64,000 bases of DNA, taken from positions 1 through 64,000 of the forward strand of contig AP018284.1 of the NCBI GenBank assembly GCA_002368355.1, written 5' to 3'. The notes below the pieces were generated by a model, which was not told the origin of the DNA, made no database searches, and saw only the letters and a list, made by a program, of their open reading frames with translations. The translations under genes and the position numbers were made by a program. Source of the stretch: Chondrocystis sp. NIES-4102. GTDB lineage: Bacteria; Cyanobacteriota; Cyanobacteriia; Cyanobacteriales; Xenococcaceae. The first letter of the stretch is position 1. The number at the start of each line of letters is the position of its first letter. This document shows, in pieces, positions 49,423-64,000 of the stretch.

Positions 49423-50121
49423 ATGCTTAACTCAATTTTAGAGCGAATCCCCAAAATAATGAAACCCGTTCGACTTGTTAGTTCTATTCTGTCTGTCGGT
49501 TTATTAATTAGTGCGCCTACTATTGTGTTAGCTCACGCGGGGCATGGCGATGAATTTCAGTCAGAAGGCGGGATTGGGCGCGTACCAGTTAATAATGAAA
49601 CCGACCAAATGCTACATATCTTAGTCGAACCGATTGCTCCAGCCCCAGATGGTAGTTCTGCCGTTATGATTCCCGCTACAGCCTTGGTGGATGCCGATGG
49701 TAAACAGTTAGTTTTTGTGAAAAATAACGATTTTTACGAACCCGTGACAGTTACCACTGGGGCGACTCAGAGAGAATTAATTGAAGTGACTCAAGGTTTG
49801 ACGGTGGGGGAGAATCTCGTAACCCAAGGCGGTTTATCTCTTTATGCTGAATCACGAAAAACCCAGTCTAGTCTGGAGCCAATTATCTCGCCCCAAACCA
49901 ATAACGCTCATGCTCAAGCAGATGCTCAAGGAATTCCTCATAGCCATGATAATGCGGGCAATCTCGTCGAGTCGGGTAAATTGCCTTTAGGATTATTCGC
50001 TGCCATTGGTGGAGGAGCGGTACTGGTAATCGGAGGATTTGGAGCGCTCGCTCTTGGAGGAGACAGGGGCAAAAAGAAACGTTCTTTGTCTAATCAAACT
50101 AGCAAGAGAGGAGGGTTCTAA
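49423..50121 (+). CDS. Miniature RND adaptor, copy 2, with C-terminal membrane anchor
   Basis: The 232-residue product repeats copy 1 (APTIVLAHAGHGDEFQSEGG and the VLVDADGKQLVFVK-type domain) and then adds a His/Asp/Gln stretch (ANAQGIPHSHDN-like, near 170-185) and a membrane segment (LPLGLFAAIGGGAVLVIGGF, about 190-209) with a basic end. It starts 1 base after copy 1's stop. The first 12 residues, MLNSILERIPKI, are copied from the start of the RND pump gene (MLNSILNQILKN), so the native start was probably the Met at residue 13 (49459); the fused start is a duplication scar. Confidence 0.75.
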   Translation: MLNSILERIPKIMKPVRLVSSILSVGLLISAPTIVLAHAGHGDEFQSEGGIGRVPVNNETDQMLHILVEPIAPAPDGSSAVMIPATALVDADGKQLVFVKNNDFYEPVTVTTGATQRELIEVTQGLTVGENLVTQGGLSLYAESRKTQSSLEPIISPQTNNAHAQADAQGIPHSHDNAGNLVESGKLPLGLFAAIGGGAVLVIGGFGALALGGDRGKKKRSLSNQTSKRGGF

Positions 50122-50127
50122 TTTAAA

Positions 50128-53100
50128 ATGCTTAACTCAATTTTGAATCAAATTCTCAAAAATTCCATCGCCCAACGCTGGTTAATTGTGGTCGGAGCGA
50201 TTTTAGTAACGGTATGGGGAGTTTTCAGCGTCACCCAGATGCCTTTAGATGTCTTTCCTGAATTTGCCCCGCCCCAAGTCGATATTCAAACCGAATCCCC
50301 TGGACTTGCTCCTGAAGAAGTGGAATCTCAAATTACCGTCCCCATTGAAAGTGCCGTTAATGGTTTACCTGGAGTGACTACCGTAAGATCTTCTTCTAAA
50401 GTTGGATTATCAATGGTGCAGGTGGTGTTTGACCAAAATGCAGACATTTACCGAGCCAGACAATCCGTCACAGAAAAGTTACAACAAGTGACAAAACTGC
50501 CTGAAGGCACTCATACCCCTGAAATTTCCCCTTTGGTATCCCCGTTAGGTACGATTTTACAATATGCCTTCACCTTCAACGGGCAAGGGCAAACTTCCTT
50601 GATGGATTTACGCCGTTTGGTGGAAGCTACTTTTAGTAATCAAATTCTCTCTGTGCCAGGAGTCTCTCAAGTCACAATTTATGGAGGTGATGAACGCCAA
50701 GAACAGGTGTTAGTCGATCCAGCCCAACTGCGATCGCTCAATGTTTCTCTTACCGAAGTAACCGATGCAGCCAGAGGTGCTAATTCTAATGCTCCTGGTG
50801 GCTTCTTAATTGGCGGGGGACAAGAGCTATTGGTACGGGGCATGGGGCAAGTGCAATCTATTGAAGATTTACAACAATCAGTGGTGAAGGTACAAAATGA
50901 CCAGCCTATTTTGCTCAAAGACGTAGCGGAGGTCAAAACGGGGTCGGCACTCAAGCGCGGTGATGCCAGCTTTAACGGGCAACCTGCGGTGGTGATGATG
51001 ATCAACAAACAGCCCGATGTAGATACTCCCACCGTCACCAAAGCAGTAGAAGCGGTGATGCGATCGCTACAGCCGACATTTCCCGCCGACGTTCAAGTGA
51101 CTAGGACGTTTCGCCAGTCCAATTTTATTGATTCTGCCATTGGCAACGTCAGCACTTCTCTAATTGAAGGTATGATAATCGTTTCGGCGATCATGCTGCT
51201 ATTTTTGATGAATTGGCGCACCGCAGCCATTACCCTGAGTGCGATTCCCCTATCGCTGTTGATTGGCTTAATGTTCATGAAAGCCTTTGGTTTGGGGATT
51301 AATACCATGACGTTAGGAGGATTAGTGGTTGCCATAGGTTCGGTGGTGGATGACTCAATTGTCGATATGGAGAACTGCTATCGCGGACTCCGTACCAACC
51401 AGGCACAGGGCAATCCCAAGCATCCTTTTCGAGTGGTGTATGACACCTCGGTGGAAGTGCGGTTGGCAGTGATTTTTTCCACGGTGATTATCATTGTAGT
51501 GTTTGCCCCGATTTTTAGTTTAACTGGAGTAGAAGGACGGATTTTTGCTCCGATGGGGTTGGCTTATTTGCTCTCGATCGCTGCTTCTACCCTGGTTGCC
51601 ATGACCCTTTCCCCCGCCCTCTGTGCGATTCTGCTGGCTAATCAAACCCTACCCCAAGAAGGGACTTTTGTTTCGCGCTGGGCAGAACGCTTGTATCGCC
51701 CCCTGCTGAACCTATCCCTGCGCTTGCCCCAACTAATTCTCGGTGTATCCTTGGCTGCCTTGGTTGCTGCTTTGACGCTCGTTCCTTCCTTGGGACGAGT
51801 CTTTTTGCCTGAATTCCAGGAAAAATCGATGGTTAACTCAATGGTCTTGTTTCCTGGAGTTGCCCTGGATATGACCAATCGGGCAGGGATGGCACTGTCT
51901 AATTCTCTTAAGGACAATCCTCTGTATGAGTGGGTACAGGTACGGGCGGGACGCGCTCCTGGGGATGCCGATGGAGCAGGTGTTAACTTAGCCCACGTCG
52001 ATGTGGAACTCAGCGACCTTGCCCTCAAAGACCGCGAAGCCAGCGTGAAGCAACTGCGAGAGACATTTTTGAAGTTACCAGGGGTAGTCCCGAATATTGG
52101 CGGGTTTATTTCTCACCGTATGGATGAGGTGTTATCTGGAGTCAGAAGTGCGATCGCCATTAAAATCTTTGGCCCCGACCTTGGTGAACTGCGTCAAATT
52201 GGCGAACAGGTGCGCGATGCTATCGAACCCATTGAAGGAGTGGTGGATTTGCAACTCGAACCCCAACTGCCGATCCGTCAGGTACAAATTCAGTACGACC
52301 GAGGGGCAGCAGCTAATTATGGTTTGAGTATGGAGGCAATTTCGGCTGTGGTAGAAACGGCTCTAAACGGTCGGGTAGTCTCCCAGGTAGCAGAAAATCA
52401 ACAGTTAATTGATATTACTGTGGGATTACAGGAATCGGCTCGCAACAACCTCGATGCCATTGGTGCTATTCCCATTTCTACTCCCACGGGAGAAATTATT
52501 CCCCTCAGTACTGTTGCTGAAGTGACCTATGGCATGGGAGCAAACGTGGTCAATCGGGAGGATGTATCGCGCTTAATCGTGGTTTCCGCCAATGTTGCTG
52601 AACGTGACTTGGGTAGTGTAGTGGAGGATATTCAAGGGACTATTCGCCAAAAGGTACAGTTACCCCAGGGCTACTTTATTCAATACGGCGGACAGTTTGA
52701 ATCGGAGCAACGTGCTACCAATAACCTGCTGGTGTTTAGTATTCTGGCAGCGATTGTCATCGCTATCTTAATGTTTTTCTCAGTGAAATCTCTTCCTGCT
52801 ACGATCGCGATTATGCTCAATTTACCTTTGGCTTTAGTGGGGGGTATTGTCTCCATTGCCTTGAGTGGTGGGGTGATTTCGATTGCTTCTTTAATTGGGT
52901 TTATTACTCTGTTTGGGGTTGCCGTTCGCAATGGCTTATTATTGGTAGACAATTACAACAATAAGTTTGCTCAAGGAATGCAGCTTAAAGATGCGATCGT
53001 CAATGGTTCTTTAGACCGAGTAAACGCGATCTTGATGACCGCCCTCACCTCAGCTTTAGGGATGCTACCTTTGGCGATCGCTAGTGGAGCGGGAAATGAA

Positions 53101-53283
53101 ATTCTACAACCCTTGGCGATTGTGGTGTTGGGTGGTTTATTTACCTCTACAGTCTTAACTTTATTGGTGATTCCTGCCCTCTATGCTAAGTTTGGCAAGT
53201 GGCTGATTCCCAAACACGCATCAACCGACCTGGAGAAAAACTTTCATCTTAACGAGCCGCCGAAAGTATCGGTTGAGTCATAA
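50128..53283 (+). CDS. RND heavy-metal efflux pump (CusA/CzcA/NrsA-like), cluster B
   Basis: The 1051-residue pump is a close paralogue of that at 11920-15045: MPLDVFPEFAPPQVDIQTES near the start, VVAIGSVVDDSIVDMENCYR in helix IV, VEVRLAVIFSTVIIIVVF, GGFISHRMDEVLSGVRSAIA and LALVGGIVSIALSGG in the later half. A strong GGAGGG ribosome site precedes the ATG. No full adaptor or TolC gene is in this cluster; it may borrow those at 23463 and 6899. The paired-Asp helix IV points to divalent metals such as Ni or Co (inference). Confidence 0.93.
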   Translation: MLNSILNQILKNSIAQRWLIVVGAILVTVWGVFSVTQMPLDVFPEFAPPQVDIQTESPGLAPEEVESQITVPIESAVNGLPGVTTVRSSSKVGLSMVQVVFDQNADIYRARQSVTEKLQQVTKLPEGTHTPEISPLVSPLGTILQYAFTFNGQGQTSLMDLRRLVEATFSNQILSVPGVSQVTIYGGDERQEQVLVDPAQLRSLNVSLTEVTDAARGANSNAPGGFLIGGGQELLVRGMGQVQSIEDLQQSVVKVQNDQPILLKDVAEVKTGSALKRGDASFNGQPAVVMMINKQPDVDTPTVTKAVEAVMRSLQPTFPADVQVTRTFRQSNFIDSAIGNVSTSLIEGMIIVSAIMLLFLMNWRTAAITLSAIPLSLLIGLMFMKAFGLGINTMTLGGLVVAIGSVVDDSIVDMENCYRGLRTNQAQGNPKHPFRVVYDTSVEVRLAVIFSTVIIIVVFAPIFSLTGVEGRIFAPMGLAYLLSIAASTLVAMTLSPALCAILLANQTLPQEGTFVSRWAERLYRPLLNLSLRLPQLILGVSLAALVAALTLVPSLGRVFLPEFQEKSMVNSMVLFPGVALDMTNRAGMALSNSLKDNPLYEWVQVRAGRAPGDADGAGVNLAHVDVELSDLALKDREASVKQLRETFLKLPGVVPNIGGFISHRMDEVLSGVRSAIAIKIFGPDLGELRQIGEQVRDAIEPIEGVVDLQLEPQLPIRQVQIQYDRGAAANYGLSMEAISAVVETALNGRVVSQVAENQQLIDITVGLQESARNNLDAIGAIPISTPTGEIIPLSTVAEVTYGMGANVVNREDVSRLIVVSANVAERDLGSVVEDIQGTIRQKVQLPQGYFIQYGGQFESEQRATNNLLVFSILAAIVIAILMFFSVKSLPATIAIMLNLPLALVGGIVSIALSGGVISIASLIGFITLFGVAVRNGLLLVDNYNNKFAQGMQLKDAIVNGSLDRVNAILMTALTSALGMLPLAIASGAGNEILQPLAIVVLGGLFTSTVLTLLVIPALYAKFGKWLIPKHASTDLEKNFHLNEPPKVSVES

Positions 53284-53289
53284 CCATAA

Positions 53290-53416
53290 CATTGGTCACA
53301 AGTTAAAGAAAGAAGAAAGTCAAGAGAAATAAAGAATCGCGTAAATAATTTCTTTTTCTCGTTTAGCTCTTAAACCCAGTTGATAAGGACTTTTTAAGCT
53401 TAATTTGTGACCAATG
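53290..53416. repeat. MITE-like element with terminal inverted repeats
   Basis: ATTGGTCACAAGTTAA at the left end and, inverted, ATTGGTCACAAATTAA at the right end enclose about 127 bp with no gene. A single related end, TGGTCACAAATTAA, occurs at 42293-42306. It lies between the pump gene and the YdcF fragment, at the point where the fragment's homology begins, so it may have mediated the rearrangement. Confidence 0.65.
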
Positions 53417-53417
53417 G

Positions 53418-53663
53418 AGTTGTTACCGCGCTCATAAAGTCTTTGACGTACATCAAGCAGTAGTGATTACCCAAAACTATCATTTACCTCGTGCTGTCTA
53501 CACTTGTCATCAGTTAGGAGTAAACGCAGTTGGTTTAGGAACGCCAGATCGAGAAATTTATGGACTGCGAGGAATGATTCCCTATTTATTACGGGAAATG
53601 TTAGCTAACGCCAAAGCTTTATGGGAAATTCACATTACTCGTCCCCGCCCCACTTTTATATAA
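53418..53663 (+). pseudogene. 5'-truncated YdcF/SanA copy
   Basis: The frame reads SCYRAHKVFDVHQAVVITQN, NYHLPRAVYTCHQLGVNAVG, REIYGLRGMIPYLLREMLAN and ends RPRPTFI. It matches the last 80 residues of the protein at 44926-45642 with only a few changes and begins abruptly at the MITE-like repeat. The N-terminal two thirds and the membrane segment are gone. Confidence 0.9.
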
Positions 53664-53750
53664 ATTTATATAAATTTACTGGACTCTTCAGCTAACTAGA
53701 GAGTTTAAGCTCGAAATCTAATACACGATCATTTATCAGCTTAATTCATC

Positions 53751-54317
53751 ATGTCAAAACTCGTATCTAAAATAACTATAACTTCAATGGCGATCGCCTC
53801 TGTGATTGGAGGAGCAATTTATTTGACTTCGGCTCAAGGTAAAAGTATCAGTAACAATACTGCGATCGCTCAAGATACCAACACAGCTACTCTCACTAGC
53901 GTTTGGGACAAAGAAACCGAACCAGCTTATTCAGGAACGACAGAAATGACCGTGTATCGCAGTCCCTCTTGTGGCTGTTGTGGAGGATGGATCGAACACG
54001 CGAAACAGCATGGTTTTAAAGTCAAAGATATTAAGACCGAGGATATGGCAGCCTTAAAGCAAAAATACAAGTTGCCGACCGAACTAGCATCTTGTCATAC
54101 AACTATTATTGATGGGTATGTAATGGAAGGACACATTCCCGTCGATGACATTAAACGTTTTCTATCGGAAAAACCCGAACTAGCTGGTTTAACTGTACCA
54201 GGAATGCCCATCGGTACACCAGGAATGGAAGCTAGAAATATTAAGCAACCATTTCAAGTCTTATCGTTTAATGATCGAGGAGAAGTCGAAATATTTAAGG
54301 AATATCAATCTTACTAA
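53751..54317 (+). CDS. DUF411 periplasmic metal-binding protein
   Basis: The 188-residue product has a signal peptide (ITITSMAIASVIGGAIYLTS, about 7-26) and a DUF411 thioredoxin-like domain: MTVYRSPSCGCCGGWIEH (about 66-83) with the CGCC motif, LPTELASCHTTIIDGYVMEG (about 103-122) and HIPVDDIKRFLSEKP. These proteins accompany copper resistance genes and probably bind Cu(I) by the CGCC and the later Cys/His. The multicopper oxidase follows after 21 bp and is probably in the same operon. Confidence 0.9.
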   Translation: MSKLVSKITITSMAIASVIGGAIYLTSAQGKSISNNTAIAQDTNTATLTSVWDKETEPAYSGTTEMTVYRSPSCGCCGGWIEHAKQHGFKVKDIKTEDMAALKQKYKLPTELASCHTTIIDGYVMEGHIPVDDIKRFLSEKPELAGLTVPGMPIGTPGMEARNIKQPFQVLSFNDRGEVEIFKEYQSY

Positions 54318-54338
54318 GACAAAGTAGTTAAATTAATC

Positions 54339-55790
54339 ATGGTTAAAATTAACCGTCGCCAGTTTATTGCATTAGGTGCTGCTGGTGTAGGAACAGCTTT
54401 AATAGGTAATTGGTTGCGTCAAGATATTTCTAGTCAACCTTTAGCCTCTTCATCTGCTAATGTATTCGATGTTTATCAAAGTAGTGATGGGTTATTAGAG
54501 TTAGACATTATAGCTAAAGAAAATCCCGTAAATTTGACTGGGAGACAAGCATATTTATTAACCTATAACGGACAAGTTCCCGCACCCCGTCTGGAAGCCA
54601 ACCCAGGAGACAAGATTCGCATTCACTTTGCTAATAATCTCTCTCAACCGACTAATATTCACTATCACGGCTTGCATATTCCCATTATGGGTAATGCGGA
54701 TAATGTTTTTCTGCATATCAAACCAGGAGAAAAACTAACCTACGAATTTCAGATACCATCAAATCATCCAGCAGGAATATTTTGGTATCATCCCCACCTG
54801 CATGGTTTAGTTGCCGAACAATTGTTTGGGGGTTTGGCAGGGTTGTTTATCGTGCGCGGTGATTTAGATGAAATTCCCGAAGTCAAAGCAGCCAAAGAAG
54901 AGTTTTTAGTACTGCAAGACTTTGCTGTGGATAATAATGGCAGACTAATCAATTCAGCCCATATGTCCTTGATGATGGGAAGAGAAGGAGACATAATTAC
55001 AGCCAACGGACAAGTAAATCCTAGTCTTTCTTTGCCCGAACAAGGATTACTGCGCTTGCGGATTCTCAATGCGTCTACTTCCCGTTTTTATCGACTGGCT
55101 TTAGAAGATCATTCCTTTTATCAAATTGCTACTGACGGAGGTGCGTTAAACGAACCAATAGAAGTTAACGAATTGCTACTGACACCAGGACAACGAGCCG
55201 AAGTTTTAATTAAAGGCGACAAAGAACCTAGACAATACCGCTTACTAAATTTACCTTACGATCGCGGTGGTATGGGTATGATGGGGGGCGGAATGATGGG
55301 CAGAAATAACCGCGATGAACCCATAGTTTTAGCAACGATTAACTACGAAGCCCCAGGACAGTCTCTTTCAATTCCCACCCAGCTTGCTTCAATTACGGCA
55401 TTGCCAGAACCTCAAACAGTAAGAAGCTTTGAACTCAATCATGGCATGAATCCCGCCGTGGGCATGGCTTTTCTAATCAATGGTGAAGCTTATAATCATG
55501 ATCGCCTCGATACCCAAGTACAACTAGATACAGTAGAAGATTGGGAAATAACCAATACAGGAATGATGGATCATCCCTTCCACGTTCACGGGTTAGCTTT
55601 TCAAGTAATTAGTCGTAACGGACAGCCAGAATCATTACTGGCTTGGCGAGATACGGTGCTAGTGCCTAGAGGTGAAACTGTCCGTATTCGTATTCCTTTC
55701 CGCGATTTTGCAGGCAAAACCGTGTATCACTGTCATGTTCTCGACCACGAGGATTTGGGCATGATGGGCAATTTGATGATTAATGCCTAA
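54339..55790 (+). CDS. Multicopper oxidase, second copy
   Basis: The 483-residue product has a Tat-like signal (INRRQFIALGAAG) and three cupredoxin domains with ligands HYHGLH (about 109-114), HPHLHG (about 149-154), HPFHVHG (about 415-421) and HCHVLDHEDLGM (about 466-477). The Met-rich insert is short here (RGGMGMMGGGMMGR). Close to the oxidase at 27379-28875 but with no direct-repeat box seen upstream. Probably a periplasmic Cu(I) oxidase. Confidence 0.92.
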   Translation: MVKINRRQFIALGAAGVGTALIGNWLRQDISSQPLASSSANVFDVYQSSDGLLELDIIAKENPVNLTGRQAYLLTYNGQVPAPRLEANPGDKIRIHFANNLSQPTNIHYHGLHIPIMGNADNVFLHIKPGEKLTYEFQIPSNHPAGIFWYHPHLHGLVAEQLFGGLAGLFIVRGDLDEIPEVKAAKEEFLVLQDFAVDNNGRLINSAHMSLMMGREGDIITANGQVNPSLSLPEQGLLRLRILNASTSRFYRLALEDHSFYQIATDGGALNEPIEVNELLLTPGQRAEVLIKGDKEPRQYRLLNLPYDRGGMGMMGGGMMGRNNRDEPIVLATINYEAPGQSLSIPTQLASITALPEPQTVRSFELNHGMNPAVGMAFLINGEAYNHDRLDTQVQLDTVEDWEITNTGMMDHPFHVHGLAFQVISRNGQPESLLAWRDTVLVPRGETVRIRIPFRDFAGKTVYHCHVLDHEDLGMMGNLMINA

Positions 55791-55815
55791 ATGATGCGAT
55801 CGCGATTGTCAAAAA

Positions 55816-56030
55816 TCAGCTAATTTTAGATGATAAAACCGTAACAGCCATCAGTCCCCAAATAACTCCAAAACGAACTTTAGTAGCACAGTGAATTTTA
55901 AATTCAGCAGATATCAATAACTTATGTAATTCCTCTTGTGTATAGCATTGTTGATGAGCGGGATCGAAAATTTGTAAGAGCCAGTCGCAGATTCTACATA
56001 CTGGATAATCTTTATTCCAGCTGTTTGATT
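55816..56030 (-). pseudogene. Methyltransferase C-terminal remnant fused after merR
   Basis: The minus-strand frame reads RICDWLLQIFDPAHQQ, CYTQEELHKLLISAEFKIHC and TKVRFGVIWGLMAVT, which is the usual C-terminal end of a cyanobacterial class I methyltransferase. It begins without a start, right where the MerR gene loses its normal sequence. A deletion presumably joined two genes. The exact seam is around 56010-56030. Confidence 0.65.
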
Positions 56031-56233
56031 TCATCCAGAGACAGCCCAAATTTTTTGGCTTTTTGAATGAAGCGCAAGCGTTCTTCATTTTCTTGACCAT
56101 AGATGCGATATTGTGATTCGGTGCGCCTGGGAGGTTCAAGTAATCCCAAGCGTTCATAATAACGGATGGTATGAGCCGATATTCCCACGCGATCGCTTAA
56201 CTCGCCAATCAACCAGCCTTCTTTACCTGCCAT
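56012..56233 (-). pseudogene. MerR-family regulator, truncated
   Basis: The 73-residue product keeps the whole DNA-binding head: LIGELSDRVGISAHTIRYYE (about 8-27), RLGLLEPPRRTESQYRIYG and ERLRFIQKAKKFGLSLDEIK. It stops at about the beginning of the dimerisation helix, so the coiled coil and metal-binding loop are missing. Without these a MerR protein is not expected to dimerise normally. The likely target promoter at 56544-56575 is intact. Located 6 bp after the thioredoxin-like gene. Confidence 0.8.
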
Positions 56234-56239
56234 TTTGCC

Positions 56240-56509
56240 TTAACCTTGACCAATACCAGCAGCTACAAGCATCTCGCGAGATACAGGCTGTTGAGAGGAA
56301 CAGCACTCTGCTAGTTTGCCATTTACTACTACCGCAGGAATGCGATGAATTCCATATTGTGTCCTTTTTTCTTTTTCTGCTGCACTTTCGTGATGTAGAT
56401 CGTAGATTTTCACCTCGCAATTAGAACAAGCTAATTCTCTCACCAGCTTGACAGTTTCATCGCATAGAGGACAACCAGCTACAAATACTTCTACTAATCG
56501 TTTTGTCAT
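56240..56509 (-). CDS. Thioredoxin-like protein with CxxC
   Basis: Start at ATG 56509, behind an AAGAGGAAAAAGAG ribosome region. The 89-residue product has VEVFVAGCPLCDETVKLVRE (about 6-25) with the GCPLC redox or metal site, CSNCEV (about 28-33), a cis-Pro in HRIPAVVVNGKL (about 54-65) and CCSSQQP (about 68-74). It resembles the small thioredoxin/glutaredoxin-like proteins found with mercury or other MerR regulators. Six Cys make metal binding possible. First gene under the MerR-type promoter. Confidence 0.82.
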   Translation of the reverse strand: MTKRLVEVFVAGCPLCDETVKLVRELACSNCEVKIYDLHHESAAEKEKRTQYGIHRIPAVVVNGKLAECCSSQQPVSREMLVAAGIGQG

Positions 56510-56543
56510 CTCTTTTTCCTCTTTAAATTGGAGTTCTAGATTT

Positions 56544-56575
56544 AGCTTAAACCTTAGAGTTAACTCTAATGTCAA
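56544..56575 (-). promoter_or_regulatory. MerR-type promoter with 20-bp spacer
   Basis: On the minus strand: -35 TTGACA (56575-56570), 20-base spacer holding the dyad TTAGAGTTAACTCTAA, -10 TAAGCT (56549-56544). Classic MerR/ZntR layout for the thioredoxin-like gene and the truncated merR. Confidence 0.85.
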
Positions 56576-56682
56576 GAAGAAATTTGTCCAATCCAAGTTT
56601 TCTAAATAAAAATGATGACTCAAATAACTTATATTTACTAGCTTCTGCTAAGATTATGAGAAGATTATGAAAAGTAACAAAA

Positions 56683-57762
56683 ATGACATTCGATGTTTCC
56701 AGGCGCTCGCTGTTGGGAATGGGATTGCTCGGAGGGGGAAATATCCTAGGCAAATTTTTACCCAGTAAGGCATTAGCTCAAAACCCCAAACAGCATGACA
56801 ACCACTTTACTAGCAGCGCGGTTCACGGTGGCAGCACTACGGTAGGTGATGTAGACAACGACCGTAATGGTTTTAATCCCCGCGACATCTTAACCGATTG
56901 GGACGGGGGAAAAGTCTCTCAATTACCTAACGGTCAGACTTTGCGAGAATATGATATTGCTGTTGAAGAACGAGAAATTGAAATCGCCCCTGGAGTGTTT
57001 TATCCCGCCTGGACGTATAACGGTCGAGTTCCTGGTTCTACTATTAGAGTAACCGAAGGCGATCGCGTTAAGATTAACTTTCGCAATAAAAGCCTACATC
57101 CCCACACCATTCACTTTCACGGTATTCATTCTGCCAGACAAGATGGCGTTCCTGGGACGCTAGAAGCCATGCCAGGAGAAGAAGTAGTGTACGAATTTGA
57201 TGCTAAACCTTTTGGCTGTCATCTCTATCACTGTCATTCTGCCCCTTTTAAGCGACACCTACACAAAGGACTTTACGGCGCATTTATTATCGATCCTGAC
57301 CCCAAACGCCATCCTGAAGCAGAGCAACAAGCGCGATCGCGATTGTTGGGCAGTTCTGAAAATAAACAGTGGCAAGAATTTTTAATGGTAATGAATGCTT
57401 TTGATACCAACTTTGATGAAGAAAACGAATTCTATGCCGTCAATACAATTCCCCACGAATTTATGAAACGCCCCCTCCGTATCGAACGAGATCGCCCCGT
57501 GCGAGTTTATTTAATTAACGTGACGGAGTTTGACCCAGTTAACTCTTTTCATCTTCACGGTAATTTCTTTGACTATTACGATAGTGGAACGACCCTAACG
57601 CCTACTCTTCGCACCATCGATACCGTGATGCAGTGCCAGGGACAGCGAGGTATTTTAGAATTTTCCTTCAAAGAACACGCCCCAGGACAGTATATGTTCC
57701 ACGCCCATCAGTCAGAATTCCTCGAACTCGGCTGGATGAGTGCCTTTGAGGTGGTGGCATGA
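56683..57762 (+). CDS. Two-domain multicopper oxidase
   Basis: The 359-residue product has a Tat signal (SRRSLLGMGLLGGG, about 6-19) and two cupredoxin domains, not three. Ligands: HPHTIHFHGIH (about 140-150), HLYHCHSAPFKRHLHKGLYG (about 180-199), SFHLHGNFF (about 287-295) and FHAHQSEFLELGWM near the C-terminus. It resembles two-domain laccases/nitrite-reductase-like oxidases acting as trimers. It overlaps the ZIP gene by 4 bp (ATGA), so the two are translationally coupled and probably functionally linked in oxidation and transport of a metal. Confidence 0.9.
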   Translation: MTFDVSRRSLLGMGLLGGGNILGKFLPSKALAQNPKQHDNHFTSSAVHGGSTTVGDVDNDRNGFNPRDILTDWDGGKVSQLPNGQTLREYDIAVEEREIEIAPGVFYPAWTYNGRVPGSTIRVTEGDRVKINFRNKSLHPHTIHFHGIHSARQDGVPGTLEAMPGEEVVYEFDAKPFGCHLYHCHSAPFKRHLHKGLYGAFIIDPDPKRHPEAEQQARSRLLGSSENKQWQEFLMVMNAFDTNFDEENEFYAVNTIPHEFMKRPLRIERDRPVRVYLINVTEFDPVNSFHLHGNFFDYYDSGTTLTPTLRTIDTVMQCQGQRGILEFSFKEHAPGQYMFHAHQSEFLELGWMSAFEVVA

Positions 57763-58913
57763 AAAAAACTTGGTTGTGGGCTGTTTTGCCATTGGTAGCA
57801 CTAGTTACTTCGATTATTATTTTCCTTTCTACCAATCCCCTCAGTCCTTTAGGCATTTCTGCACCTCCTCTAGAAAATCTGACTATAGAGCGAACTGTCT
57901 TAGGCGATCGCGCTATTTCCTTGTTAGTTAGGGCGGAAGGTTCAGAACCGATGCAGATTGCTCAAGTGCAGGTAGATGGGTCTTACTGGACGTTCACCCA
58001 AAAGCCTCCAGGTGCTTTACCTAGACTCTCAACTGCTTGGATCGATCTGCCCTATCCTTGGGTAGAAGGCGAAACCCATCATCTTAACTTGATTACTAAT
58101 ACGGGAGTTGGTTTTGAACATACTATAGATGTAGCTGTAGCTACGCCTCAATTTTCCTTGAGCCGTCTTTGGGGTTTTACTTTACTCGGATTATACGTTG
58201 GGGTCGTACCTGTAGGGCTGGGAATGCTGTTTTATCCATCCCTCAAAACTTTAGGTGGGGAAGGAATGAAGTTTATTCTCGCTTTAACCTTGGGAATGCT
58301 GGCTTTTCTTTTGCTAGATACCCTGGAAGAGGGATTAAAACTAGCTAACAGTGCAGCTAATGCTTTTGCGGGCAGCATTTTAGTTTGGGCGATCGCAGCT
58401 ATCTCTTTTTTGACAATTTTAACTATTGGTCGCAGTCGAGGTAAAGCTCCTGAAGGACAAAGCCTATCTACTTACCTATCTTTCAGTATCGGCATTCATA
58501 ATTTAGGAGAAGGACTAGCAATCGGTACGGCTTTTGCTGTCGGAGAAGCTGCCCTCGGTTCGCTTTTGGTAGTTGGTTTTACTTTGCACAACTTAACAGA
58601 AGGAATTGGTATTGCTGCACCTTTGGTTAAATCTAAACCGACCTTCATTACTTTTTTAGGCTTGACTGCTTTAGCGGGACTACCTGCGGTATTAGGAACT
58701 TGGCTGGGCGTTTTTGCCTTTTCTCCTCACTGGGCGGCAATATTTATGGGCATTGGTGTAGGGGCAATTTTACAAGTAATTGTAGAAGTTGGTTCGTATT
58801 TGGCACGTACCGCTAGTAAAATTGGTGGTACTTGGTTATCTAAGATTAGTTTGGCAGGATTTAGTGCGGGATTGATAGTAATGTACGGTACGGCATTGCT
58901 TGTTAACTTCTAA
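57759..58913 (+). CDS. ZIP-family metal transporter with periplasmic N-terminal domain
   Basis: The 384-residue product starts with one membrane segment (LWAVLPLVALVTSIIIFLS), then a roughly 110-residue beta-rich periplasmic domain (VLGDRAISLLVRAEGSEPMQ, LSTAWIDLPYPWVEGETHHL) not found in ordinary ZIP proteins. After that comes an eight-segment ZIP core: the metal-site helices are SIGIHNLGEGLAIGTAFAVG (about 246-265) and VGFTLHNLTEGIGIAAPLV (about 277-295). It is expected to bring divalent metal into the cytoplasm. Coupled to the two-domain oxidase, recalling oxidase-permease pairs for iron, but with ZIP in place of Ftr1. Confidence 0.88.
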   Translation: MKKTWLWAVLPLVALVTSIIIFLSTNPLSPLGISAPPLENLTIERTVLGDRAISLLVRAEGSEPMQIAQVQVDGSYWTFTQKPPGALPRLSTAWIDLPYPWVEGETHHLNLITNTGVGFEHTIDVAVATPQFSLSRLWGFTLLGLYVGVVPVGLGMLFYPSLKTLGGEGMKFILALTLGMLAFLLLDTLEEGLKLANSAANAFAGSILVWAIAAISFLTILTIGRSRGKAPEGQSLSTYLSFSIGIHNLGEGLAIGTAFAVGEAALGSLLVVGFTLHNLTEGIGIAAPLVKSKPTFITFLGLTALAGLPAVLGTWLGVFAFSPHWAAIFMGIGVGAILQVIVEVGSYLARTASKIGGTWLSKISLAGFSAGLIVMYGTALLVNF

Positions 58914-59016
58914 AGCGTAAAAGAAGTCTGATGTCAGATTAATTCTGTGTTCTGTTACTAGAATGGTATTGAGAGGTAATTTTCTTGTTCTAAGTTACAG
59001 CAAGAACAATCCAGCC

Positions 59017-59355
59017 ATGAAATCGATGAAGACATCAGGCATTATCATGGGGAGGACACGTGGGGCGAATCGAATTCGCGAGACTGAGATGTCCCTGATG
59101 ACATTAACTTTTGGAGGATTGTCGGTTTTTGTCAGACCAGCTTTAGCCATTTCTCCTACTCAGTAGCAATCGGCAATTTTTGCCGTTCGCATGAATGCTG
59201 AAAACTTGTTCGCTCGCGGTACAGAGAAAATTGCTCGCGGTGATTACCAAGGGGCAATTGCTGACTTCGAGCGCGTTATCGCACTCAATCCGAATTACAT
59301 TGAAGCTTATTGTAATCGAGGAATGGCGTACTTTGGCTTAGGAAATTTAGTCTGA
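59017..59355 (+). pseudogene. Exported TPR protein remnant with nonsense codon
   Basis: From ATG 59017 a hydrophobic export-type stretch (LMTLTFGGLSVFVRPALAIS) is followed by an in-frame TAG at 59164-59166. Beyond it the same frame gives MNAENLFARGTEKIARGDYQ, GAIADFERVIALNPNYIEAY and CNRGMAYFGLGNLV, one and a half TPR units, then TGA. A palindromic element (P5) sits in the N-terminal part, adding RGANRIRET. The rest of the gene is missing. The Tn7-like element begins 90 bp further on. Confidence 0.75.
59052..59099. repeat. Palindrome in the TPR remnant (element P5)
   Basis: Arms GCGAAT (59065-59070) and ATTCGC (59074-59079). Outer flanks GGAGGACACG and GAGATGTCC are the same as in element P4 at 47711-47756, but the stem is different and instead resembles that of P1 (GGGGCGAAT). 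Confidence 0.7.
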
Positions 59356-59445
59356 CCAGGAATGATTAATGTATCTAAAAATCAATGTCAATCTTGGAAG
59401 CTGGATTGTTCTCCTGAGAATTGAGAACATGAGTATAGACGGCAG

Positions 59446-59492
59446 TGTAACTTGAACCATAAAATGGGAATAATAGAAGCATAAAATGAGAC
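59446..59492. repeat. Tn7-like left end with two binding-site-like repeats
   Basis: After the terminal TGTAACTTGA there are two copies of a shared core: CCATAAAATGGGAAT (59457-59471) and GCATAAAATGAGAC (59479-59492). The tnsC reading frame ends only 23 bp inside, so this is the tnsC-proximal end. Confidence 0.85.
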
Positions 59493-59514
59493 TGTTTCTA
59501 TTTTGAGAAAACAA

Positions 59515-60678
59515 TTACGTTTCTCCGATCACATCACGATTAGGTTGGCGCACTCCAGGTTTGTATTTTCTTTTTTGAGTATTCCTTAAGCCAGGAGAAG
59601 GATTGTTGGTTAGTAAAACCGAAGAAGATACTTCTGATAAACCCAGTTTTTGACGTAGTAGAGTTAATTCTCCCGATTCAAACTGAAGTGCTTTCTCCCC
59701 TTCGATGGCTTAGAAGTGCCATTTGGAGACATTTAGACACAGATGGTGCATAAGATTGCCAATGCTGCTCAGTTAGACTGGAAGCATTTTCATCTAAGGC
59801 TTTTCGATAAGCTTGAGTGAGCCAATCTTTTAGAATGCCCACACAGCCAATGCTTCGTTCGTAAAAATGTTCCCAATGAGTTTCTAATTCTGGTGGTCTA
59901 TCCAAAGCCATTTTCTCTCCAAAACTTTTGAGTACCCGTTGAAACTCCACCAAGTCTTGGGAACAGTCGGCTTGATAACGAGAAAAATGAATATCTATGC
60001 TACGACGAGAAAGTTGACCGCGCTTGATTACGAAATTCTAGTAATTCGTAAGTACCAAATAACCCATGTAAAGTATCTGTCATACTAGCCATTGACTGCA
60101 TTGCATCTATTTGAGCTTGTTGTCTGCTACTACTAGCCATCTTGGAAAATCTTTGAGCTTCATCAGTCAAAAAAACAATCATGCGTCGATGTCGTATGTT
60201 GACGATTACTTGTTCTCTTAAGGTAGATAAATGACTTCTATCTGAACCAATACTCTTTTGAGATCGTCTGCTTTTTTTGAGTTGACTTCTTCTGGACATC
60301 AACTTAGATGGAACTGGTAAATCAGTTAGAGAAGTCAAAACACTTTGATAATAACTTTTCCAATCAAAACTGCCTGATTCGGGAGCGCGAGCTTCTACTG
60401 TCGCAAAAGAGCAGATAATCAGAATCTTTGACCATTCGCCCTAAATGTTCCTTTACCATCACTTTACTAATTTGACGTAGTAGGGTGGTTTTTCCGACTC
60501 CTGTTGGACCAAACAAAAAAATTATTGAAGCTCCGCCTGGATTACTTATTGCATCTCGGAATTCTTCGTAAGCCTTTTTTAGATGTGGATGTACTACTGT
60601 ACAATCACGAAATAAATCTAACTTTTGTTGTTTAGACAGGGTCGGATAGTGACGGTCAGTGCGTCTATAAATGGGCAT
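59515..60678 (-). pseudogene. tnsC: TnsC-like AAA+ ATPase, multiply frameshifted
   Basis: The start ATG at 60678 overlaps the tnsAB stop (TAATG). Frame pieces in order: HPHLKKAYEEFRDAISNPGG and the Walker A IIFLFGPTGVGKTTLLRQI; then, after a shift near 60390, VEARAPESGSFDWKSYY, MIVFLTDEAQRF (Walker B) and LHGLFGTYELLEFRN; after a shift near 60015, the C-terminal region with ETHWEHFYERSIGCVGILKD; and after one near 59700, FESGELTLLRQKLGLSEVSS to TAA 59515. At least three frameshifts; dead. The protein would be the transposition regulator, about 385 residues. Confidence 0.88.
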
Positions 60679-63104
60679 TACCAAAACTCCTCATAAGGTT
60701 TAATTTCTGCTGTTTTTTGAGACTGTAGAGACTCGGTTTCACTAACCACTGATGTAGTCTTTTGAGAAGACTCTGATTCGATCTCTTCATGACTAGAAAT
60801 GGTTGATAAAATATTTTTAGCTTCCCCATCCTTTAACCTCTGCATGAGAATCGATTCAGTGGCTTGAGTTCCTTCCAGGAAATCTGCCAGAGCTTTCGCT
60901 GTGATGGTAAATTTTTGTCCATGTTTTTTGTGCTGTTGTCGCAACTCTTGTGTCGCTAATTGAATTTCTCGTTCCGAACGACCATGAAAAATACTGTAGT
61001 ATTGGGAGATGCACCTAACCCATTGTCCTCGCACGTAGGCATAGGCAACTCCCGCGTCGCTTGGGTCATACCTGACATTCACTCGTGTCTTTTCAATGCT
61101 GCCATTGCGAAAACTATTATGCCAATAGTAAAGATGGTTAATTTTGACTCCCTGATTGGAGATGACTTTGGCCATTCCCTTAGAGGTGGTGGGCAAGGTT
61201 AAAATGCGGAAGTTTTCATCATAGGGAATTAATCGGCTCGGTCTTGAACCAGTTTGAACTATGTCTTGGTGATAGGCATCAAAAGGACTCTGACCTAATG
61301 CGGGATGCTCTTGATGGTCATAAAATTCGTACACCCAATTACATAAATATTGATATAAACTTTCTAGTGTCCAAATTGCATGACGACGTGGATTAACGGC
61401 GGTCGTAACCTGACGAGAGTTTTTTGTGATTTGTGTGTTACCTGCCAAATTGTGAATAAACATAGTGTTGGCAGTTCCGAAAAGACGCTCGCACACAGAA
61501 CCAAAACGTGGTTTTCCCCCTGGTCTAGTTTTTGAAGTACATTCATACATGGCAAGTAGTCTTTCAAAATAAATGCTACTAAATTCTTTTCCTCCATCCA
61601 CCACTAAACATTGAGGAAAACGCCCATAACGACGAACACAGTCTCGCATCACCATCATGCAACTGCGATACGATGGAGGGTCGAAAGTCAGATAAAAGGC
61701 TAGGATTCTTCGAGAATAAGCATCCGATACGAAAGTTACCCAAGGACGACCTAATATTGCTTGAGTTTTTGAGGAAACTAATTCGATATCTAGCTGGGTA
61801 TGATCTAGATGGCAAATAGCCCAAGGACGATCTCCATGTCGCGGTGTAGTAAATTCCAATTCCCAGTAAAAAGGTTCGTATTTGTATGCAGCACGAGAAC
61901 CCTGACGTTTTTTTGTTCGGCTTCTTTCCAACTTTGAATCCAACGATAAAAACTACTTCTAGGAACGTTTTTATTTCTAGGAGAAGAACCGATAAGATAA
62001 GGTGCAACGATCCGATAACGTCGATTGGCTTCTGCACAATCTGACTCACTAGCATCAATAATCTCTGAATAAATCTGGCTCTGGTTCGGAGTTTTATTAT
62101 TGATTACGGTTATTTTTCCTGAGCCTATCAACTCTTCAAAAACTGTAATCGATAAGTTAATGACATTTTGTGGCGAATTTAATAATGTCACCTCTGTCGA
62201 ACCTAAGTTGAGAACTCGCCAATCAATTCCATTCCAAATTATCTGACTTCCGACAGTTGGTTTAACCAATATCTGGTTGTTTGTGTCCCCAAAATTTTCT
62301 GATTCAATTGGTTGGGGAATTGAATAGGCTGTTTCAACAGAAAGAAAGAGTTGAACTTTTTTCGCTTCACTGGCTAAATCCGCAGCACTCAAATCAACGT
62401 AGAGTTTCTTGGTCGCGATTAGCCTGTAAATTTCGTCGGGGTTAAATTGCAATTCCAGTAGCTTTGATAATGTTATTCCTAATTGCGTTGCTACTAACCC
62501 CATAATTTTTTCTTGGTTAGATATTGGCGTGTCTAACTCTGTAGAAGCTCGAAAGTAATCTTCCAAGAAGTATAAATTTCGTTGAAGATACCAATCAATT
62601 TCGGTTTCTGTGCGAACCAGGTAGTAAAGCCCCCTAACATTTGCATAGTCTTCTCGGGCGCGGACACTGCCATTGACCCGGTTCAACTTGTTGGTAGCGG
62701 TTGGGCATCTTTACTGTCAGTTGTGTCAATTCTTGTGTTGTTTTCCATTCTGACCAACCAGCACGCTCTTGACGTATCACAAAAAAATCAGGAGTATGCC
62801 GTACTCCTACTCCTCGACCCGACCCACTCTCGTAGTTCAACTTAATCGTTGGTGGTTGGTCATAATATTCCAACACCTCGCTGTCGTATTCCATTGAATA
62901 GATCCCAGCGAGTTCATGATGATGGCTTTCAAATTGAATAGTCACCCCCATTTTTTGACTGGGATAGCGACCACTAACATTTCCTCTCCAACTTTGTACT
63001 CTCCGAGAGGGCGGTGAAGAGCGAATTTGTTGGCTTTATTCTCTCGTGGACTCTTTTAATTGAAGTTTTATACACCAATCATGAAACTGTGAGCCGTTTA
63101 GCAT
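60678..63104 (-). pseudogene. tnsAB: TnsA-TnsB fusion transposase, decayed
   Basis: ATG at 63104 gives NGSQFHDWCIKLQLKESTRE, then an in-frame TAA, then QQIRSSPPSRRVQSWRGNVS, and the TnsA endonuclease core VLEYYDQPP, HTPDFFVI and WSEWKT. A shift near 62665 leads to GLYYLVRTETEIDWYLQRNL and the TnsA C-terminus, followed without a stop by TnsB. A second shift near 61930 precedes the DDE core: ICHLDHTQLDIELV, CLVVDGGKEFSS and SVCERLFGTANTMFIHNLAG (Asp, Asp, Glu). The total of about 809 codons matches TnsAB fusions known from Tn7-like and I-B CRISPR-associated elements. Cutting and joining activities are lost. Confidence 0.88.
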
Positions 63105-63157
63105 GGCACTTCCGCTCTCGGAAAGTTGTTCTTCCAAAGCAGATTTTAGCTTATTTA

Positions 63158-63312
63158 GTCTCACTTTATGCTTCTGTTTTTAATAATAGTCTCACTTTAT
63201 GATTCAAAAAATTTAAAGAAGGAAAAATTTATTGGACGAATTTACTTACTTTTAGAGTTTAAACTGTCCCATTTTATGATTTCGTTATTCCCACTTTATG
63301 ATTCAAGTTACA
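63158..63312. repeat. Tn7-like right end with four binding-site-like repeats
   Basis: Four inverted copies of the left-end core: GTCTCACTTTATGC (63158-63171), GTCTCACTTTATGAT (63189-63203), GTCCCATTTTATGAT (63266-63280) and ATTCCCACTTTATGAT (63287-63302), then TCAAGTTACA. Two sites against four gives the left-right asymmetry typical of Tn7 ends. The tnsAB start lies just inside. Confidence 0.87.
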
Positions 63313-63966
63313 CCTGGCTGAATAAAGTTTTCGATTAAATAGTTGTTGTCTTCAACAGTTGTATTAGTACAGGTAGAATAGCCTGTAAAAGTTAGATATT
63401 AATCTTTCTAATCTAACTTTGAGTCATTGTGTGTGACGTGAGAATTATTATGTAAATGTCGGGCGGTTAAGTAAACAACAACTCGTTATGTGCAGTTTTA
63501 TTAATAATAAGTCTAGATATCTGGATAGTTAGATTTCTACAGTTATCAAATTTAAAGTTGTCAGATATCTAGACTCAATTTAATCTTGGTGTCAATTGCA
63601 AATAGTATTATATGTATAGGTTTCTTTAAGTCTAACTCTCACAATTTATATTTAACTCTAATTTAAGAATTATAAGTATTGCCAGACAAAGAAAAACAAC
63701 TTCAAACAATACTTGATATATAAATGTCCAAAATTAATAAATATTTTGAGTAGAGATATCTTGACTTCTTGGTATCTCTACTCAAAAATATCTAAGTTTC
63801 TAGATTTTTGTAATTCAAGTTTTAGCGAAATACATATATCAAAGAGCTAAAATAGCTTTACATAAACAGTTATATAAAGTTAAGTATCGAAATAGCTTAA
63901 CAACTCGACATTAGAGTACTTAGAGGTTATAAAGAACTGGCAAAAACTCAGAGAAAATCAAATTAA
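63313..63966. other. Gene-free AT-rich region with inverted repeats, possible partition site
   Basis: No gene is seen. GTCTAGATATCTG (63511-63523) recurs inverted as CAGATATCTAGAC (63561-63573). GAGTAGAGATATC (63748-63760) pairs with GTATCTCTACTC (63772-63783) as a stem-loop. The octamer AGATATCT or close variants occurs in all three. Lying just before a ParA-like start, these may be a centromere-like site or a ParA-family operator. Confidence 0.45.
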
Positions 63967-64000
63967 ATGAAAACAATAGCTGCTGTTAGTTTGGCTGGAG
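63967..64000 (+). CDS. Start of a probable ParA-family ATPase (cut by window edge)
   Basis: ATG at 63967 opens MKTIAAVSLAG before the window ends. This matches the usual opening of ParA/Soj ATPases just before the deviant Walker A (GG.GK.TT), which would lie in the next few residues. Eleven residues are too few to be sure. If right, it supports a plasmid location. Confidence 0.4.
   Translation, partial: MKTIAAVSLAG

Follow-up and report, generated by a model that had tools for sequence, protein, structure and literature searches.

The locus described here raises the question of how a Tn7-type transposon can do without a TniQ/TnsD target selector. Passages of Faure et al. (2023, PMC10293859) call tniQ/tnsD 'ubiquitous in the Tn7 branch', and a table in Mitra et al. 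(2010, PMC2918618) gives 0 transposition for Tn7 TnsABC without TnsD. The window, that is, the whole stretch of DNA that was analysed, comprises bases 1-64,000 of contig C4 (a plasmid of 149,096 bp) of Chondrocystis sp. NIES-4102, whose genome amounts to 5.0 Mb in seven contigs. At positions 59446-63312 it holds a decayed, non-autonomous Tn7-type copy with a broken tnsAB fusion, a broken tnsC and well-kept ends. We favour, with a probability of roughly 0.75, the reading that this copy is a decayed member of a group of compact Tn7-lineage elements consisting of TnsAB and TnsC only, in which TnsC would license insertion.

The element lies on the minus strand in the order tnsAB, tnsC and runs TGTAACTTGAA...TTCAAGTTACA. 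Its limits follow from an inverted repeat, from the homology of a second copy in the genome (copy 2), which starts exactly at 59446, and from intact relatives with the same ends and 5-bp target duplications. The terminal inverted repeat spans 53 nt with 85% complementarity, and its outermost 11 bases (TGTAACTTGAA) are perfect. A site search revealed putative TnsB sites of the CATAAAATG type in opposed orientations, two in the left end (59446-59514; sites 59458-59466 and 59480-59488) and four in the right end (63105-63312; sites 63162-63170, 63193-63201, 63270-63278 and 63292-63300), the two left sites recurring at identical distances in the elements of Pleurocapsales cyanobacterium LEGE 10410 and Pleurocapsa sp. 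CCALA 161. As a yardstick for the lesions we used the LEGE 10410 element, an intact 4,116-bp contig with the terminal repeat at both contig ends, to which the window copy is 90.5% identical. Based on reading frames, Pfam and this alignment, the tnsC remnant (59515-60684, minus strand) has 1-base frame shifts at three places, near 60410, 60022 and 59716, and the tnsAB remnant (60678-63104, minus strand) contains a nonsense codon at 63038 (codon 23), a 1-base shift near 62659 and a 253-bp deletion near 61918. In total, five lesions break the frame and there is one clear nonsense codon; an extra stop at 59712, just behind a tnsC shift, is left out of the count. The original prediction, made from the letters alone, had described a Tn7-like element with recognisable ends, two and four internal sites, at least five frameshifts and one nonsense codon, all of which was confirmed. 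It was also right that no selector, Cas gene, CRISPR or cargo lies inside, as no gene besides tnsAB and tnsC was recognisable within 59446-63312 and a repeat search of the element found no CRISPR-like array. On the TnsAB pieces, Tn7_TnsA-like_N (2.7e-8) and Mu-transpos_C (2.6e-6) scored over their cut-offs and the DDE core rve (6.7e-6) under its own, and the P-loop ATPase matches displayed for the first tnsC piece were all under cut-off.

The missing selector could be one more product of this decay, the element then being a dead type I-B CRISPR-associated transposon (CAST) or targeted Tn7 remnant stripped of selector and cargo. The copy is indeed broken, and its nearest solved proteins come from a type I-B CAST, in line with the predicted kinship of the TnsAB fusion: the same subfamily of TnsAB (9bw1_M, 970 bits) and TnsC (8fcu_Q, 1.4e-80) serves type I-B2/I-D CASTs (PmcCAST, CyCAST). 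The present elements differ from those systems in having no TniQ, TnsD, Cas genes or CRISPR; neither Cas effector genes nor a CRISPR array was found inside. We searched 291 genomes of the order, 47 of which had a TnsB match at E<=1e-20; 60 regions around the listed matches were analysed, with some weak or fragmentary ones excluded, and TnsAB, TnsC and TniQ were placed by profiles. For named genomes, the classification covered the best 80 of 272 confirmed loci. Altogether, 142 loci were classified (some genomes twice), 81 with TniQ, 40 without, 12 undecided and 9 without usable tnsC. In the window's own clade, clade A (Pleurocapsales), complete elements encode TnsAB and TnsC only: those of LEGE 10410 (contig equal to element) and CCALA 161 (4,116 bp, duplication AATCT) both leave 72 bp between the last tnsC codon and the element end, the same as the window copy, and that of Hyellaceae CSU_1_1 (4,166 bp, duplication GCTTG) leaves 145 bp. 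With a gap of 72-145 bp after tnsC, these intact copies have no room for tniQ. Their two-gene content is the same as that of the window copy, they are 92-94% identical to its TnsB piece, and their intact TnsAB fusions measure 892 aa.

A search of the Chondrocystis genome for TniQ and Cas genes had been proposed, and was made for TniQ and Cas7. The TniQ profile search found no match, so a tniQ just outside the element, which would have belonged to it, is rejected; Cas7 (PF01905) had no match either, in a search in which 2 of 14 control genomes matched. The TniQ model gave no match in control genomes in one search and matched 40 of 47 genomes in another, from which we take it to work in this group. 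With no Cas7, no TniQ and intact two-gene relatives, we rejected the CAST remnant, which is very improbable. Judged by the gene content of intact relatives holding TnsAB and TnsC only, the absence of a selector is not due to decay.

The same content recurs in clade B, whose elements are found as several copies with target duplications. G090 carries four copies of 4,502-4,513 bp (duplications CATTG, GGTAG, TCAAA and GGAAT), three of them 100% identical, and Nostoc sp. ATCC 53789 carries a 4,749-bp element, 100% identical, on four plasmids (GCTCC, ACAAG and ACATT, the fourth copy being cut by the record end). Further copies occur in Tolypothrix PCC 7712 (4,751 bp; GAAAG and CAGTC, with a third copy without duplication) and Nostoc MS1 (4,744 bp; TTAAG). 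Since the two termini differ in many Nostocales copies, the ends in Nostoc ATCC 53789, Tolypothrix, Nostoc MS1 and Trichormus were set by comparison with other copies or with close strains. Ten clade B copies with ends have 73-630 bp between tnsC and the element end. In plasmids A and C of Trichormus variabilis ATCC 29413 (6,495 bp; GCAAG and CCGAC) this gap reaches 1,966 bp and is occupied by three extra open reading frames (ORFs), which occur only in the Trichormus/NIES-3756 type; the window lineage carries no cargo, and a cargo-bearing element was rejected for it. These ORFs (L197:9290-10875 and L198; 138, 122 and 211 aa) are 100% identical in the two plasmids and have no Pfam match over cut-off, and the 138-aa gene directly 3' of tnsC could be cargo or a new accessory factor.

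Compared with Tn7-like elements, the group thus has the TnsA nuclease and TnsB DDE transposase (Pfam on window pieces and intact relatives), with acidic residues at the likely catalytic TnsAB positions invariant in 9 sequences as judged by eye, and a TnsC AAA+ ATPase, on which AAA_22 scored over cut-off in intact proteins of both clades and TniB over cut-off in clade B and just under in clade A, with a fold match to PmcTnsC. TGT...ACA ends, several sites and a 5-bp duplication occur together in 14 complete relatives, and the window copy has the ends and the transposase sites. The TniQ/TnsD selector is absent from the element, from its intact close relatives and from its own genome. Transposition genes only and identical copies at unrelated sites, as in the four plasmids of Nostoc ATCC 53789 and the three copies of G090, amount to the lifestyle of an insertion sequence.

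A TnsAB tree was calculated from 101 proteins, left from 120 after removal of near-copies, with frames of <780 or >1,000 aa excluded and the window piece kept; 63 rows had TniQ, 27 lacked it and 11 were undecided. In these comparisons, which use quick trees lacking bootstrap values, show long branches for non-cyanobacterial rows and rely on groups named after the first tree was viewed, the TniQ-less TnsAB proteins form two clades, A and B. The TniQ label needed 2 changes on the tree, compared with 23.5 on average when labels of the TniQ-less group were shuffled (0 of 500 shuffles as low), well-supported branches of the 101-row tree force 2 changes, and an earlier tree of 52 rows had the same outcome. 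A single TniQ-less clade was rejected (approximately unbiased test, p-AU 0.003; cost 46.5 log-likelihood units) when 15 TniQ-less rows were forced together among 42 chosen rows, the window piece excluded. The comparison of TnsAB phylogeny that the original prediction had suggested placed clade A in a group (starred 99) with the TniQ-bearing Phormidium, G152, Coleofasciculus and G065 elements. Clade B is old (stem of 0.65 changes per column), wider among cyanobacteria and contains no TniQ-bearing row. The direction of change would be a loss of TniQ, because TniQ is present elsewhere.

In the proposed mechanism, TnsAB would bind the end sites, with cleavage of the 5' strands by its TnsA part and of the 3' strands by its TnsB part, a cut-and-paste mode. 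TnsC, with neither TniQ nor TnsD, would load on target DNA unaided and then recruit TnsAB, and insertion would not be tied to a fixed site, as with MuB- or IstB-dependent elements. We infer that TnsC alone licenses insertion. IS21 (IstA/IstB), Tn552 and Mu (MuA/MuB) likewise combine a DDE transposase with an AAA+ partner and have no TniQ, and the present elements would work like them; those three do not belong to the Tn7 lineage and have no TnsA nuclease domain. In Tn7 with the gain-of-function TnsC A225V, TnsABC insertion is independent of the selector, but this is a laboratory mutant.

Clade B TnsC retains the AAA+ core and a C-terminal motif of the VGxRxPxRDxVG type, with a tail between them. 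The median tail length is 135 residues (120-212, 26 sequences, some identical), compared with 41 in TniQ-bearing TnsC (29-101, n=44) and 46 in clade A (n=4), ten further unassigned rows being excluded. The tail repeatedly contains clusters like KRTRKKP and KKKQTRKK. In an AlphaFold2 model of TnsC from Nostoc sp. KVJ20 (mean predicted local distance difference test score, pLDDT, 65.9), residues 384-487 had a pLDDT of <50 and no secondary structure; the core best matched PmcTnsC in 9g0f (PmcTnsC-dsDNA complex, E 1.4e-24), and the list of structure matches includes 7mbw and 7mcs (TnsC A225V). No alignment of the TniQ-contact loop of TnsC to the I-F3 structure was obtained. The predicted disordered tail with its lysine/arginine clusters may help clade B TnsC to hold DNA without TniQ. 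On balance, we lean towards the fuller scenario in which TniQ was dropped twice in this cyanobacterial TnsAB subfamily, giving rise to autonomous cut-and-paste insertion sequences whose TnsC would recognise the target by itself, the clade B tail replacing TniQ.

Several observations weigh against TnsC-licensed insertion by two-gene elements. Clade A TnsC has no long tail, so the tail cannot account for clade A, and in clade B it is modestly basic, with a median net charge of +7 (-1 to +12, the -1 being a tail whose start was placed too early) vs +2. One of the three Trichormus ORFs could be a new selector. Nine copies lack a target duplication though their ends were found, namely the window copy itself (flanks GGCAG/CCTGG), Tolypothrix L192, G024a, G024b, G238, L147, L150, L153 and G276d, and the right end of copy 2 is lost. 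Finally, 15 genomes were counted with a clade A or B copy (the Chondrocystis genome, G019, G217, G233, G249, G276, G246, G227, G024, G090, G189, G015, G278, G128 and G238, the last by its long TnsC), leaving aside G073 (fragmented copy, no TniQ nearby) and G076 (contig end). Nine of them have a TniQ-domain match at E<=0.01 (in G024 both under cut-off), so that supply in trans is possible there. The six without a match at this threshold are the Chondrocystis genome, G019, G249, G246, G278 and G238, and all copies are broken in the Chondrocystis genome, G019, G246 and G238.

These last counts would suit a parasitic life, in which TnsAB+TnsC elements exploit TniQ-bearing relatives in the same cell through TniQ in trans. 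We regard this as improbable. Intact genes are kept in G249 and G278 among the six match-free genomes, and a survey of 386 genomes of the phylum (completeness >=95%) found 11 with a match to a clade B TnsAB at E<=1e-200; in five of these (G278, G507, G525, G128 and G246) the identity was 65-72%. G507 (99% complete, 3 contigs) encodes a TnsAB of 924 aa and a TnsC of 521 aa, though no clear ends were found for its element, and it has no TniQ match even at E<=1, a threshold at which 9 of 14 control genomes give matches under cut-off. At E<=1 the search was also empty in G249 and G246; it gave two matches in G278 (13 bits, E 0.4-0.5), one under cut-off in G525 and one over cut-off in G128. Intact genes thus stand in three genomes without a TniQ match at E<=0.01 (G507, G249 and G278), and supply in trans is therefore not needed for the genes to persist. 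The age of clade B, with no TniQ-bearing row nested inside, and purifying selection also speak against parasitism: ratios of nonsynonymous to synonymous substitution (dN/dS) were 0.136-0.181 for TnsAB (6 pairs) and 0.096-0.227 for TnsC (5 pairs, one near synonymous saturation).

Among the matches of the TniQ searches were also open frames of ~165-190 aa, aligned over most of the TniQ model and far from TnsAB hits (e.g. G065:C1:5632914, G234:C10:17501 and G220:C3:1591204). These may represent a non-transposon TniQ-domain family. Synechococcus elongatus likewise has a TniQ-model match under cut-off.

Another possibility is that something else takes the place of TniQ, either a host protein or a preference of TnsC for DNA structure, such as replication forks or bent or AT-rich DNA. 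Many copies sit on plasmids, though the plasmid collection was what was searched there, and a selector located outside the element would go unseen. The insertion sites offer little in favour of such a selector: 14 TniQ-less insertions with perfect duplications have 14 distinct target pentamers, and no clear A+T preference was found among them (0.599 around the site vs 0.581 across the locus, with an excess in 8 of 14). Nothing further fits in elements of 4.1 to 4.8 kb with short ends, and we consider a replacement selector rather unlikely. The CCALA 161 copy appears to be inserted within a gene, as its rejoined flanks give a 389-codon stop-to-stop frame. In this small sample, drawn from surviving copies, the pattern fits unselective insertion.

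The original prediction further suggested that the window copy might be a passenger moved in trans and that an intact TnsAB element with the same ends might exist in the genome. A 24-base end pattern (<=3 mismatches) occurs three times in the 5.0 Mb, against 0 for the reversed-pattern control; the genome search found no intact TnsAB of this family, a fourth hit (29% identical) belonging to a different element. Copy 2 (C4:78059-80420) is 99.83% identical to the window copy over 2,362 bp (4 differences in a DNA search) and has the three tnsC frame shifts in common with it. The third copy, C4:65373-65975, lies outside the window and is 603 bp long, with both ends kept (TGTCACTTGAACC...GGTTCAAGTGACA); an internal deletion fuses tnsB to the 3' part of tnsC, and the identity of its pieces to the window copy is 72-79%. 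It amounts to a miniature non-autonomous element.

Segmental duplication or gene conversion might have produced copy 2 in place of transposition. On its right side, copy 2 is interrupted by ~117 bp (80421-80537), followed by 27 matching bases to 80564 and then by unrelated sequence, which leaves a single informative boundary, and because only that boundary is readable, recombination keeps some weight. At that boundary, the homology begins precisely at the first base of the terminal repeat and the left flanks of the two copies are unrelated, so we judge such an origin unlikely. Copies 1 and 2 are probably, and most simply, the outcome of transposition in trans after tnsC broke, which both copy 2 and the nearby 603-bp relative fit; the broken window copy would have been mobilised by an intact relative since gone from the plasmid. 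Hence, past movement in trans is the part of the suggestion that stands, and a passenger of a CAST in this genome is the part that does not, given no TniQ, Cas7 or intact TnsAB. The ~117-bp insertion in copy 2 contains five tandem AAGTAGC units and has no second copy on C4.

The insertion site of the window copy seems rearranged, because its left flank (59376-59445, minus strand) has 82.9% identity over 70 bp to C4:125763-125832 and its right flank has no match near there. By eye, the left flank resembles the 3' end of a tyrosine-recombinase gene.

With regard to known systems, the 2024 review describes, in the part concerned, Tn5469 of Fremyella diplosiphon as cargo-free, with one TniQ and apparently untargeted, and takes its discovery to point to missing target specificity (PMC11406308). 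The present elements resemble it as compact cyanobacterial Tn7-like elements with no cargo, but have no TniQ. The same review states that there is no broadly accepted definition of Tn7-like, and for this reason, together with the lack of TniQ, we call the element a Tn7-lineage derivative. CAST I-D shares this TnsAB subfamily and, according to a section of PMC11656645, is able to insert in the absence of TniQ, apparently via direct TnsC contact. In the portion of the 2025 classification that deals with them (PMC12669027), TniQ-TnsD is absent both from the I-A CASTs of Mu-like transposons and from the I-E5 CASTs of telomeric transposons; going by their description, these are other transposon classes. 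An excerpt of Benler et al. (2021) gives tnsD/tniQ in 73-97% of transposons per clade, and loci without them have therefore been counted before. Our literature search found no description of TnsAB+TnsC-only elements of this subfamily, and an earlier published mention is possible. The family of the window copy represents a branch of the Tn7 lineage without TniQ, the analysis having found two such branches; TniQ-less elements have already been reported in other transposon classes.

Elsewhere on the plasmid, C4:109989-113236 (L015:13990-17237) carries a Tn552-like group on a single strand, in this genome without a TniQ match; it comprises a serine resolvase (182 aa), a DDE transposase with Mu-transpos_C (493 aa), an AAA ATPase (282 aa) and a second short resolvase-like ORF. 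Window positions 50000-55789 form a metal-resistance region (annotated RND efflux genes, a DUF411 protein and a multicopper oxidase), with 95.5% identity to Stanieria cyanosphaera plasmid NC_019750. Only one plasmid record, from Stanieria cyanosphaera PCC 7437, matched window 50000-64000 (95.5%, covering 41% of the query).

TniQ/TnsD is regarded as the common adaptor of Tn7-like elements, and selector-less TnsABC is silent in Tn7. The TniQ-free lineages may reveal how transposons of a type that usually is tightly targeted can work with no target selector and, if the favoured reading is true, would represent counterparts in nature of the gain-of-function TnsC mutants of Tn7. They could also yield a compact two-protein cut-and-paste system, and they bear on off-target insertion by CRISPR-associated transposases that use the same TnsAB/TnsC subfamily. 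Standing beside close TniQ-bearing sisters, they provide matched pairs for asking what in TnsC makes a selector necessary or dispensable.

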